A DNA stretch of 64,000 nt from Apibacter sp. B3706 (GTDB taxonomy: Bacteria; Bacteroidota; Bacteroidia; Flavobacteriales; Weeksellaceae). Where the stretch lies: contig NZ_CP049715.1 in NCBI RefSeq assembly GCF_011082725.1, positions 744,001-808,000 of the forward strand. Direction: 5' to 3'. Positions 50,677-53,833 of this stretch are shown one piece after another. Every line of letters starts with the position of its first letter. Positions within the stretch are counted from its first letter, which is position 1. A program made the position numbers and the translations under genes. The notes beneath the pieces are model-generated. The model made no database searches, had not been told where the DNA came from, and saw only the letters and a program-made list of their open reading frames with translations.

Positions 50677-51186
50677 TTAATTTTCGAATACTTCAAACGT
50701 ATGATCTTCGTATATAATTAAGATTTTTTCTATTTTTTTCTTGTTATTTTTCGTTTTCTGCAGGATTGAATTTTTAATTATTTGATCTTCTGTCTGAGAA
50801 TTTTCTTTTACGCGATTCTCAGGCGCTTGAATAGTATTAACACTATTAGAGTATGAAGAATCTTTTTGTTTTTGATCTATTTCATCTAAAGAAAAGAGTG
50901 TAGGGGATGGTTGTTCCTGAACCGTTTTATTTTCTAAATCTAAACTTTCCTTTTTATTATTTTCCAATTGAGATTTCAAAGGTTTTCCTTTTCCTAAAAT
51001 GAGCCATTCAGAATTTATTTCAGGAAAAACTGATAGAGTTCTTTCTAAAAAATCTAATGAAGGTTTATTTCGAGCAGAAGTGATATGCGAAATACTCGAT
51101 CGTTGGACATTTATCTTATCTGCAAATTCTCCTGATGTTAAACCTAATATTTCTATGAGTGTAGCTATTCTTTTATCAATTTCCAT
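50677..51186 (-). CDS. XRE-family helix-turn-helix regulator
   Basis: The N-terminal 65 residues form a lambda-Cro/XRE helix-turn-helix: LTSGEFADKINVQRSSISHI is the helix-turn-helix core, followed by PSLDFLERTLSVFPEINSEWLILG, the usual tail. A charged linker of about 80 residues leads to a short C-terminal motif YEDHTFEVFEN seen in flavobacterial relatives. It lacks a membrane or peptidase domain. Two operator-like repeats lie directly before its start and two more before the divergent M14 peptidase gene, suggesting that it represses itself and that gene. Confidence 0.88.
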   Translation of the reverse strand: MEIDKRIATLIEILGLTSGEFADKINVQRSSISHITSARNKPSLDFLERTLSVFPEINSEWLILGKGKPLKSQLENNKKESLDLENKTVQEQPSPTLFSLDEIDQKQKDSSYSNSVNTIQAPENRVKENSQTEDQIIKNSILQKTKNNKKKIEKILIIYEDHTFEVFEN

Positions 51187-51188
51187 GA

Positions 51189-51202
51189 TTTACAAATGTT
51201 AA
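51189..51202. promoter_or_regulatory. Operator-like repeat 1 (XRE gene)
   Basis: TTTACAAATGTTAA fits TTTACA-NN-TGTAAA with one mismatch. It lies 3 bp upstream of the regulator's start codon. Confidence 0.55.
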
Positions 51203-51205
51203 CTA

Positions 51206-51219
51206 TTTACATATGTGAA
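51206..51219. promoter_or_regulatory. Operator-like repeat 2 (XRE gene)
   Basis: TTTACATATGTGAA fits TTTACA-NN-TGTAAA with one mismatch, centred 17 bp from repeat 1, between the -7 box and the start codon. Confidence 0.55.
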
Positions 51220-51234
51220 ATAGAGTAATAAATA

Positions 51235-51242
51235 CAAAGTTA
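51235..51242 (-). promoter_or_regulatory. Promoter -7 box for the XRE regulator
   Basis: The minus strand reads TAACTTTG, 49 bp before the start codon, with both operator-like repeats downstream of it. Confidence 0.6.
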
Positions 51243-51424
51243 CTAAAAATACCATAGATTCTGTCAAAAAATAACTTAAAGTTAACTTCAATAAAAACAT
51301 TAAATAAATATATATAAAATACTGGTAAATAAATAATTAAATATTTTTTAATAAGAAAATTAAATAAATTACTTATAATTATATGACACAATATCAGGAC
51401 TAATAAATTATAAGAAAAGATTGT

Positions 51425-51438
51425 TTTACAAATGTAAA
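51425..51438. promoter_or_regulatory. Operator-like repeat 3 (M14 gene)
   Basis: TTTACAAATGTAAA is a perfect TTTACA-NN-TGTAAA inverted repeat, about 50 bp upstream of the M14 promoter's -7 box. Confidence 0.6.
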
Positions 51439-51451
51439 TTACAAATGTAAA
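51438..51451. promoter_or_regulatory. Operator-like repeat 4 (M14 gene)
   Basis: ATTACAAATGTAAA fits the same pattern with one mismatch and abuts repeat 3. It reaches the expected -33 region of the M14 promoter. Confidence 0.6.
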
Positions 51452-51475
51452 TCAAGAAAACTGTGTATAATTGAA

Positions 51476-51483
51476 TATCTTTG
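51476..51483 (+). promoter_or_regulatory. Promoter -7 box for the M14 peptidase gene
   Basis: TATCTTTG matches TAnnTTTG. It overlaps the 5' part of the longer open frame, so translation must start downstream, at 51498. Confidence 0.7.
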
Positions 51484-51497
51484 TAAAAAATATAATT

Positions 51498-52679
51498 ATG
51501 TCTGCAGAGTTTAAAATCTTTGATTTAAATGAAAATTTAAGTATCGAAGAAAATTTTAAAAATAGATATGTAAACCCTTCGGAGCTTTCCGATTTTTTAA
51601 TGAAAAATTATAAAAGTTTACTTACAGAAATTGGAAGATCGGAACTTAATAAACCTATATATAAATTGACTTTAGGAAAAGGACCTAAAAATATATTACT
51701 ATGGACCCAAATGCACGGGAACGAAACAACGGGTACCTTAAGTTGTCTAGATTTGCTTAAATTTTTTGAAAGTGAAAATAATTGCTCTCATGAAATTCTC
51801 AGCAAGTTTACCCTCGATATTATTTTCATGTTAAATCCGGATGGAGCTGAAATTTGGACACGAAGAAATCGTTTAGGAATTGATATTAATCGGGATTTTT
51901 TAGCCGTTTCATCAATAGAAATGCAAATATTAAAAAAAACTGCAAGTGAAAAAAAATATGATTTAGCGTTTAATCTACACGATCAAAGAACTATATTCGG
52001 AGTAGAAGGAAAAAAAGAACCGGCTACACTGGCTTTTTTATCGCCATCGGAATCGGTTGACAGAAAAGTGACTGAAACCCGAAAAAAATCGATGGGATTA
52101 ATAGCTGATATTTATCAAGAAATTTCAAAACTTCTACCTAATAAGATATCAAGGTTTACCGATGAATTTTATCCAAGATCAGTCGGTGATAATTTTCAAA
52201 AATTAGGAATTCCTACTATATTGTTTGAAGGAGGGCATTTTCCCAAAGATTATTATCGTCAAATAACCAGACGATATTTTACATTATCGTTGATTACTGC
52301 TCTATATTATGCCTCTGTTAAGGATGAATGGCAAAAGGGGTATGAATTATATAATGAAATACCTAATAATTCTTTATCATTTTTTGATATTATATATAGA
52401 AATGTACGCATACGTGAAGATAAAAAAGAAACAGTTGATATTGGTATACAATATGTAGAAAAGATTACTAAGGGAGAAAATGAACTTTCATTTATTGCCA
52501 AAATAGAAGACATTGGAGACCTTACATTCATGTATGGACATGAAGAAATTGATGCAGATGGAAGATGTATCGTTTTCGCGGACTCTGCCATACAGTTTCC
52601 TAAAATAGGCATCTTGGCTGATTTTAAATTAGATGAGTGGATTATTGTAAATGGAAAAAAATTGGATTCATTTGCTTAG
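51498..52679 (+). CDS. M14-family zinc carboxypeptidase-like protein
   Basis: The frame is open from 51471, but the promoter box there makes the ATG at 51498 the start, giving 393 residues. Zinc ligands of the M14 fold are His73 and Glu76 in QMHGNETTG and His161 in NLHDQR; NPDGAEIWTRRNRLGIDINRDF is the substrate-binding block, and Glu244 in LFEGGHF is the likely general base. There is no signal peptide, so it acts in the cytoplasm. The C-terminal third is a separate beta-rich domain. The gene is divergent from the XRE regulator, with shared operator-like repeats. Confidence 0.88.
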   Translation: MSAEFKIFDLNENLSIEENFKNRYVNPSELSDFLMKNYKSLLTEIGRSELNKPIYKLTLGKGPKNILLWTQMHGNETTGTLSCLDLLKFFESENNCSHEILSKFTLDIIFMLNPDGAEIWTRRNRLGIDINRDFLAVSSIEMQILKKTASEKKYDLAFNLHDQRTIFGVEGKKEPATLAFLSPSESVDRKVTETRKKSMGLIADIYQEISKLLPNKISRFTDEFYPRSVGDNFQKLGIPTILFEGGHFPKDYYRQITRRYFTLSLITALYYASVKDEWQKGYELYNEIPNNSLSFFDIIYRNVRIREDKKETVDIGIQYVEKITKGENELSFIAKIEDIGDLTFMYGHEEIDADGRCIVFADSAIQFPKIGILADFKLDEWIIVNGKKLDSFA

Positions 52680-52876: not shown

Positions 52877-53833
52877 ATGACAGAAAACACAGATATATTA
52901 GAAACTATTATTATAGGTTCCGGTCCTGCAGGATTTACGGCTGCAATTTATGCTGCCAGAGCCGAAATGAATCCTCTTATGATCACCGGTTTAGAATTAG
53001 GAGGACAGCTAACGACTACCACCGAAGTTGAAAATTTTCCCGGATATCCCGACGGGATTACCGGTCCTGAAATGATGATTCAGTTACAAAAACAAGCCGA
53101 AAAATTCGGTACACAAGTTATCATCGATACCGTATCAGAGGTTGAATTAGGAAAAAATGTAGGAGACATACATATTGTAAAAACTATATCGGGAAAAGAA
53201 TTTAAAACTAAAACTATTATCATTTCAACGGGTGCAAGTGCAAAATATTTAGGTAAAGATTTTGAAAAAACCTATAGAGGAGGCGGAGTTTCTGCTTGTG
53301 CCACTTGTGACGGATTTTTTTACAGAGGTAAAAATGTGGTAGTTGTAGGAGGCGGAGATACGGCAGCTGAAGAAGCAACGTACTTAGCAAAAATATGTAA
53401 GACTGTTTATATGCTTGTACGTAAAGATTATTTAAAAGCTTCTAAAATTATGCAAGATCGAGTAGACCTCACCTCTAATATTGTACTTATGTATAATACC
53501 GAATTGCAAGATTTAAAAGGCGATAATAACTTGGTTTCTCAAGCCGTGGTTATTGATAATTTAAACAACGAAGAAAAAGTATTGGATGTAGACGGAATAT
53601 TTATTGCTATCGGACACAAACCCAATACCGAGATATTTAAAGGTAAATTGGAAATGGACGAAACCGGATATTTACATGTTAAGCCATTTAGTACAGAAAC
53701 AAATATTCCGGGAGTTTTTGCGGCGGGTGATGTTGCCGATAAAAAATACAGACAAGCAATTACTGCCGCAGGAGCAGGTTGTATGGCTGCTTTGGATGCA
53801 GAAAAATATGTATCGTCCCTAGATCATCATTAA
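52877..53833 (+). CDS. trxB: Thioredoxin-disulfide reductase
   Basis: TrxB passes electrons from NADPH through FAD to thioredoxin. The 318 residues have the FAD motif IIGSGPAGFTAAIYAARAE (12-30), the redox pair Cys141-Ala-Thr-Cys144 in ACATCDGFFYRG, the NADPH-binding VVVVGGGDTAAEEA and the C-terminal GVFAAGDVADKKYRQAITAAG. recR follows after 24 bp and then a glycosyltransferase, probably one transcript. Confidence 0.97.
   Translation: MTENTDILETIIIGSGPAGFTAAIYAARAEMNPLMITGLELGGQLTTTTEVENFPGYPDGITGPEMMIQLQKQAEKFGTQVIIDTVSEVELGKNVGDIHIVKTISGKEFKTKTIIISTGASAKYLGKDFEKTYRGGGVSACATCDGFFYRGKNVVVVGGGDTAAEEATYLAKICKTVYMLVRKDYLKASKIMQDRVDLTSNIVLMYNTELQDLKGDNNLVSQAVVIDNLNNEEKVLDVDGIFIAIGHKPNTEIFKGKLEMDETGYLHVKPFSTETNIPGVFAAGDVADKKYRQAITAAGAGCMAALDAEKYVSSLDHH

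Follow-up and report, generated by a model that had tools for sequence, protein, structure and literature searches.

A divergent gene pair in Apibacter sp. B3706, an XRE-type regulator gene (- strand) and an M14 metallocarboxypeptidase gene (+ strand), carries repeated operator-like sites at both of its promoters, and the XRE protein is probably a dedicated, loop-forming autorepressor of its own gene and of the peptidase gene. The two genes are separated by a 311-bp gap, at positions 51187-51497 of the window (the whole 64,000-nucleotide stretch of DNA that was analyzed). In the proposed mechanism, dimers of the XRE protein would recognize the palindrome TTTACA-NN-TGTAAA, copies of which are clustered both at the start of the regulator gene and at the peptidase promoter. 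The two clusters, separated by about 200 bp, would face the same side of the helix, and contact between the proteins bound there could loop out the DNA spanning both promoters. One site per cluster coincides with the -7 box in Flavobacteriaceae, where binding would directly exclude sigma-A. In the window, the regulator's sites lie just downstream of the inferred transcription start, and those of the peptidase a short way upstream of its -7 box. In deeper relatives, extra in-frame copies are present within the regulator coding sequence. On the basis of the sequences compared here, we consider the sites, their conservation, their link with the regulator, their overlap with the -7 box and the constraint on codons to be established.

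Organization of the divergent locus

The regulator gene (50677-51186, - strand) encodes a 169-aa protein with an XRE-type helix-turn-helix (HTH) domain, assigned by a Pfam HTH_3 match and an AlphaFold model, and with no recognized effector domain. Two operator-like sites lie beside its start, X1 (TTTACAAATGTTAA, 51189-51202), which is 2 bp off the start codon, and X2 (TTTACATATGTGAA, 51206-51219), each with one mismatch and each kept in relatives. An exact -7 box, TAACTTTG, is found at 51235-51242 on the - strand, 56 bp upstream of the regulator ATG; its putative role is based on the TAnnTTTG consensus as given in a passage of PMC9723704. On the peptidase side, site M1 (TTTACAAATGTAAA, 51425-51438) has no mismatches and is the only exact match in the genome, while M2 (ATTACAAATGTAAA, 51438-51451) has one mismatch and is retained at this place in the six Apibacter-like loci; base 51438 is common to both. 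All four sites were thus present as originally predicted, with 1, 1, 0 and 1 mismatches. The spacer between the two clusters (51220-51424) would form the proposed DNA loop, a role based on distances quantized by ∼10-11 bp over the relatives; in the window X2 and M1 are 219 bp apart, start to start, which corresponds to 20.9 turns of 10.5 bp.

The 393-aa M14 metallocarboxypeptidase is encoded at 51498-52679 on the + strand and was recognized by its match to Pfam Peptidase_M14, its AlphaFold model and the structural similarity of this model to carboxypeptidases. The original prediction had placed sites just before the -7 box of this gene. They do lie upstream of the box, but the conserved exact box is TATCTTTG (51476-51483, + strand), 22 bp upstream of the peptidase ATG, and 24 bp separate it from M2. 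In an alignment of the six Apibacter-like loci a TAnnTTTG box was found at this place in all six, while the one-mismatch box TATAATTG at 51466-51473 was less conserved.

Conservation of the gene pair and its sites

The closest named relatives are Apibacter, the peptidase being 83 percent identical to that of A. mensalis. A scan of named genomes identified a related peptidase at 80 loci, 54 of which also contain a relative of the regulator. Matches to the regulator profile were obtained in 187 of 296 genomes from the order of the window, in 41 of 296 from a phylum sample, and in 235 of 249 from one large family, Flavobacteriaceae by inference (the labels Flavobacteriaceae, Weeksellaceae and Flavobacteriales were inferred for the sampled genomes from named relatives). 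A second set was comprised of 110 stretches picked by the regulator instead of the peptidase. It contained 103 adjacent divergent pairs, two pairs located farther apart and five stretches without a peptidase, and a site was present in 101 of the 103 adjacent pairs. Only six of these pairs repeated gaps of the first set, and 95 of the 97 new ones had a site.

Both sets together provided 179 distinct divergent XRE-M14 gaps (of 192, identical ones having been dropped), and 170 of them had a site with at most one mismatch. When two mismatches were allowed, a site was found on the regulator side in 172 gaps, on the peptidase side in 174 and on both sides in 167. In total, 505 sites with at most one mismatch were counted in the 179 gaps, compared to 4.3 expected from first-order shuffles. 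Identical proteins were likewise dropped, leaving 255 distinct regulators, and XRE genes containing N, as well as three loci that repeat the window (L085, L088, L198), were left out of the counts. The predicted conservation of the sites in relatives was borne out by the 167 of 179 distinct gaps with sites on both sides, and on these comparisons the gene pair and its sites are old.

The distribution of the sites among the 80 peptidase loci was then compared with that of the regulator. Of the 46 peptidase upstream regions with an adjacent regulator, 43 contained a site with at most one mismatch (110 sites, compared to 0.9 expected); none was found in the 19 regions with no regulator within at least 2.4 kb. 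The remaining loci either have a gene between the two (a site in four of eight) or little upstream DNA (one of seven). Judged by this distribution, the sites track the regulator and not the peptidase.

At many loci with a gene between the regulator and the peptidase, sites persist at both promoters. In Chryseobacterium-like genomes, the regulator has kept its sites, and others lie at a distance of some 46 bp from the peptidase. Such an insertion was observed in L010 (a TerC family gene), L099 and L104-L120, and many of these loci have a further site at least ∼280 bp ahead of the peptidase, so that the inserted gene may have become part of the regulon. No site was found at the peptidase in L054, L064, L066 and L072, and three loci with an XRE and an M14 gene within 1.5 kb (L149, L151, L152) contain no such sites. 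The regulators of the latter differ around the HTH, with IKRPIVSH or IKRPIISH instead of VQRSSISH, and these loci constitute a natural test of which regulator residues read the site. The proposal that the regulator governs itself and the peptidase as a small regulon is favored by the presence of sites at both promoters in 167 of 179 gaps, by the contrast of 43/46 with 0/19, and by the retention of sites despite an inserted gene.

Frequency of the sites in the window and in whole genomes

Five matches with at most one mismatch were identified in the 64-kb window, compared to 0.78 expected (100 dinucleotide shuffles, largest count 3); with up to two mismatches there were 23, compared to 15.4. 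The fifth match is a lone one-mismatch site at 53319-53332 within the next ORF (52877-53833), probably a chance occurrence. The original prediction had stated that no such cluster was found elsewhere in the window.

Across the whole genome, a single contig of 2.30 Mb, 56 places match with at most one mismatch, compared to 41 for the reversed pattern, and exact sites occur once, compared to twice. A lone one-mismatch site therefore means little, since the genome count is close to background. For the exact tandem pattern, this gap is the only match in the genome, and the reversed control gave none. Among 38 genomes, exact tandem sites were found in 13, at one place each and always at this regulator (the reversed control matched in one genome of 38); in one of the 13, G004, the tandem site falls inside the regulator coding sequence. 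The possibility that the motif occurs at background frequency genome-wide, put forward with the original prediction as grounds for rejecting it, thus holds approximately for single sites and fails for tandem ones. It is clustering, not single sites, that sets this gap apart.

Exact single sites numbered 54 over 25 genomes, compared to 14 for the reversed pattern. By our count of the matches listed, 23 of the 54 are located at the regulator and 31 elsewhere, and with these 31 sites a few further targets of the regulator are possible. Twenty of the 31 were examined, in six genomes; 14 were inside ORFs and six between genes. Related neighbor genes were seen among these 20 only in L309 (position 1570) and L315 (position 1484), where an exact site precedes a carboxyl-transferase gene by ∼62-64 bp. 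As this only recurrent context comes from two close relatives (their proteins are 98.6 percent identical), the 20 sites revealed no conserved further target, and on this sample a wider regulon was rejected. No site with up to two mismatches was found in the stretches examined around two other HTH genes of one genome (L086, L087).

Spacing of the two clusters

The distances between the clusters recur in steps of 10-11 bp and so suggest a DNA loop. In the first set, with one representative per cluster of related gaps (n = 58), the best period among those tried (7 to 15 bp) was 10.6 bp (R = 0.58), a phasing matched by none of 5000 jittered sets. In the later set (cluster-edge distances, n = 99) the best period was 11.3-11.4 bp (R = 0.62 at 11.3 bp), with R of only 0.39-0.41 at 10.5 bp. 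Such distances can be taken only where sites are present on both sides, as in 58 of the 69 clusters of the first set and 99 of the 103 rows of the later one. When the distance was measured from the second regulator site to the first site of a peptidase-side pair spaced by 24 bp (119 of 179 gaps, pooled), the best period was 10.4 bp (R = 0.74). These distances fall into classes near 203, 213, 223, 233 and 243 bp, and the intervals between the classes are empty. Strictly new gaps (n = 72) gave a best period of 10.5 bp (R = 0.79). It should be noted that these pooled tests, with periods of 10.4-11.4 bp, do not remove shared descent.

An appreciable, though clearly smaller, probability belongs to loop-free local repression, in which the clusters act separately, each on its own promoter, and the regularity of the distances reflects inheritance or a constraint other than looping. 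The distances are indeed common by descent, and this was addressed with 67 phylogenetically independent pairs (drawn from the 139 of 192 rows with the 24-bp pair). In 41 of them the distance had changed by less than 4 bp, and in 26 by 4 bp or more. The best period of these 26 independent changes was 11.6 bp, equaled by 301 of 20000 uniform null sets (only about the 1.5 percent level), with almost no signal at 10.5 bp. Passages of PMC8501960 describe an in vivo helical repeat of about 11 bp per turn in repression loops. Local repression alone is at odds with the discrete classes and their empty intervals, which are seen also in the strictly new gaps. We regard the loop as likely, and the two clusters may be bridged by the bound regulator.

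Overlap of the putative operator with the -7 box

The Bacteroidota sigma-A -7 box is given as TAnnTTTG in a passage of PMC7366714, and a passage of PMC9723704 places it at -12 to -5. The sequence TTTACATTTGTAAA includes TACATTTG, and among the 128 distinct gaps with a 24-bp-spaced pair, 118 have a TAnnTTTG whose first base is the third of the last peptidase-side site. The centre of the site reads TT on the strand of the gene in 120 of these 128 last peptidase-side sites, and likewise in 149 of the 161 sites that are second on the regulator side. The remaining peptidase-side sites have a mixed centre (AT, TT or AA), and the site on the regulator's start mostly has AT; in many relatives this latter site spans the ATG itself, so that the protein begins with MIN or MVN. 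Outside the window's family, most relatives have one copy of the site per promoter that is itself the sigma-A -7 box, and the bound protein should therefore block RNA polymerase.

The window differs in that its sites are located beside the -7 boxes, not on them. The regulator's box TAACTTTG is upstream of its two sites, which would occupy about +12 to +42 relative to an inferred start. Autorepression fits both layouts, the -7 overlap and the window type, and the XRE protein very probably binds the sites and represses its own gene.

The sign of peptidase control in the window is less sure, because the sites lie upstream of the -7 box. It is conceivable, but unlikely, that the XRE protein, while repressing itself, is an activator of the peptidase, at least in the family to which the window belongs. 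With the transcription start inferred by the -12 to -5 rule (as given in a passage of PMC9723704), the peptidase-side pair is centred about 44 and 57 bp upstream of it, an activator-like position, and in the window and five Apibacter-like relatives the peptidase sites are at least 24 bp from the conserved -7 box. Activation would, however, require a switch of sign within one orthologous pair, since the coincidence of the last peptidase-side site with the -7 box in 118 of 128 gaps fits repression in the other relatives. For this genus too, repression of the peptidase is the reading that we tentatively prefer.

Sites within the regulator coding sequence

In deeper relatives (Cryomorphaceae-like, Owenweeksia-like and some others), sites were found within the regulator's own gene. 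Counting those located beyond codon 10 and with no more than one mismatch, there are 23 such coding sites, all in frame 0, and they are distributed over 14 of 255 distinct regulator genes. Synonymous codon permutation per gene gave a mean of 8.4 coding sites, with a largest value of 14 in 300 permutations. The encoded peptide is x-T-N-V-x in 19 of the 23 cases, most commonly FTNVN, the others being FTDVN (twice), FANVK and FPNVN. The Thr-Asn-Val (TNV) tripeptide starts at residues 52 or 56, where the HTH ends, in the linker and tail at residues 71-78 and 116-167, and in one case at residue 2. In-frame coding copies, mostly Thr-Asn-Val, were seen in L053, L064, L098, L115, L146, L147, L150 and L171. 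A double site with 12-bp spacing lies within the regulator coding sequence (ITNVYTNVN) in L054, L066, L072 and L089-L094, and in L066, L072 and L090 a 12-bp-spaced double site is also present upstream of the regulator gene.

All 46 TNV tripeptides, spread over 17 of 66 clusters at 60 percent identity, use ACA-AAT-GTA (35) or ACA-AAT-GTT (11), and codon usage at the loci predicts 1.96 occurrences of the GTA form. The simplest reading is that these codons are under selection at the DNA level. It is quite improbable that the repeats are kept for the sake of the protein, with codons merely following usage. The first copy (residue 55) does fall on a turn, [FY]-x-x-[VI]-[ND], that is conserved among the regulators, and TNV in neighboring ORFs shows a mild excess of the same codons (GTA form in 5 of 22, compared to 1.41 expected). 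Against this reading, ACA-AAT is used in 46 of 46 tripeptides, while outside the tripeptides the codons of these genes are ACA for 26 percent of Thr and AAT for 70 percent of Asn. Moreover, among 40 conserved amino-acid columns in 15 such proteins, T and N are the only ones encoded by one and the same codon in all 15 (the V column has two), and the further TNV copies are located in the linker or tail at varying positions. The coding copies look as if they partly replace the upstream ones, a site being present in the 60 bp upstream of six of the 14 genes with coding sites and of 165 of the 241 genes without.

Finally, that another regulator binds the sites, such as the Lrp/AsnC protein whose gene directly follows that of the peptidase in many Flavobacteriaceae (named in L027), is highly improbable and was rejected: sites are absent from loci that have the peptidase and Lrp and no XRE gene (L013, L015), they are present at loci that have XRE and lack an adjacent Lrp (the window, L053, L064), and they occur inside the XRE genes as well.

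Properties of the two proteins

The regulator matched Pfam HTH_3 (PF01381) with 25.6 bits, above the cut-off of 23. In the AlphaFold model, the HTH (residues 1-70, block means of pLDDT above 90) is followed by a low-confidence linker and a C-terminal beta hairpin (155-167) with a consensus of about I-V-I-F-Y-x-D-G-T-F, which is kept across the regulator alignment. In the model this hairpin could be the contact that closes the loop. No ligand domain was recognized by Pfam. The suggestion that the system responds to a particular peptide or acyl-amino acid is therefore unsupported, the protein being comprised only of the HTH, the linker and the short hairpin.

The peptidase matched Pfam Peptidase_M14 (PF00246) with 45.1 bits, above the cut-off of 21.6, and its AlphaFold model (pLDDT 94) has a carboxypeptidase fold over residues about 18-277 only (Z = 26.4 and 2.5 Å over 241 residues to 3l2n; Z = 26.0 to carboxypeptidase B, 1z5r). 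The M14 motif consists of the zinc ligands HxxE...H, a substrate-binding NR pair and a catalytic Glu. Residues H73, E76, N131, R132, H161 and E244, assigned by motif and not by superposed residues, are invariant in 34 of 34 peptidase sequences. Inspection by eye revealed no signal peptide. Many Flavobacteriaceae loci have genes for an M1 aminopeptidase, an Lrp/AsnC protein and a 2-oxoacid dehydrogenase E1 as neighbors (one representative of each was named). Gammaproteobacterial relatives of the peptidase (L070, L071, L074, L075 and L076; Pseudidiomarina is among them) adjoin a glycoside hydrolase family 3 gene, named in L070. These lineage-specific neighbors suggest a role of the peptidase in peptide use or in the recycling of wall peptides, and settle nothing.

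Comparison with known systems

No description of this regulator-peptidase pair was found in our searches of open-licence PMC papers. The system is of a known kind, an autorepressor with a divergent target and multiple operators, and what is new is the merging of the operator with the -7 box and with the regulator's own codons. We give roughly even weight to the fuller reading that one 14-bp word serves three codes (operator, -7 box and, in deeper relatives, in-frame codons, mostly F/Y-T-N-V-N), which together with the helically phased clusters would make a self-looping autorepressor, kept across almost a whole family, whose TNV repeats were gained because the DNA needs operators there. The locus would offer a natural case of selection on DNA overriding codon choice inside a regulator, as well as one of an operator and a promoter box merged into a single word, with helical phasing made visible by genome comparison.

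The Lac and Gal repressors are looping repressors with an operator inside a structural gene. The present system would resemble them in having several operators on one helical face, with a phasing of about 10-11 bp, and extra operators in coding sequence. It differs in the XRE fold, in the lack of a recognized sugar-binding domain, in an operator that doubles as the -7 box, and in coding copies that lie within the regulator's own gene as in-frame peptide repeats. An N-terminal HTH_3 domain and divergent promoters with palindromic, putative operator sites at both are shared with XRE autorepressors of the phage CI/RstR, PuuR and HigA types. In contrast to RstR, HigA and PuuR, the regulator falls far below the respective NCBIfam cut-offs (21 of 80, 17.2 of 47.7 and 13.2 of 211 bits), and it is chromosomal and nearly universal in one family. 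A phage origin was rejected, there being only two weak phage matches.

MpaA, a murein tripeptide amidase, is controlled by PgrR, a LysR-type protein. Common to both systems are an apparently cytoplasmic M14 enzyme and a dedicated regulator, but the present peptidase scored 25.6 bits with the NCBIfam MpaA model, below the cut-off of 157, and its regulator is of the XRE type. Finally, as in a Bacteroidota sigma-A promoter, the operator read on the strand of the gene contains TAnnTTTG exactly in most gaps outside the window's family. Unlike a plain -7 box, this one is extended to a 14-bp palindrome and repeated several times.
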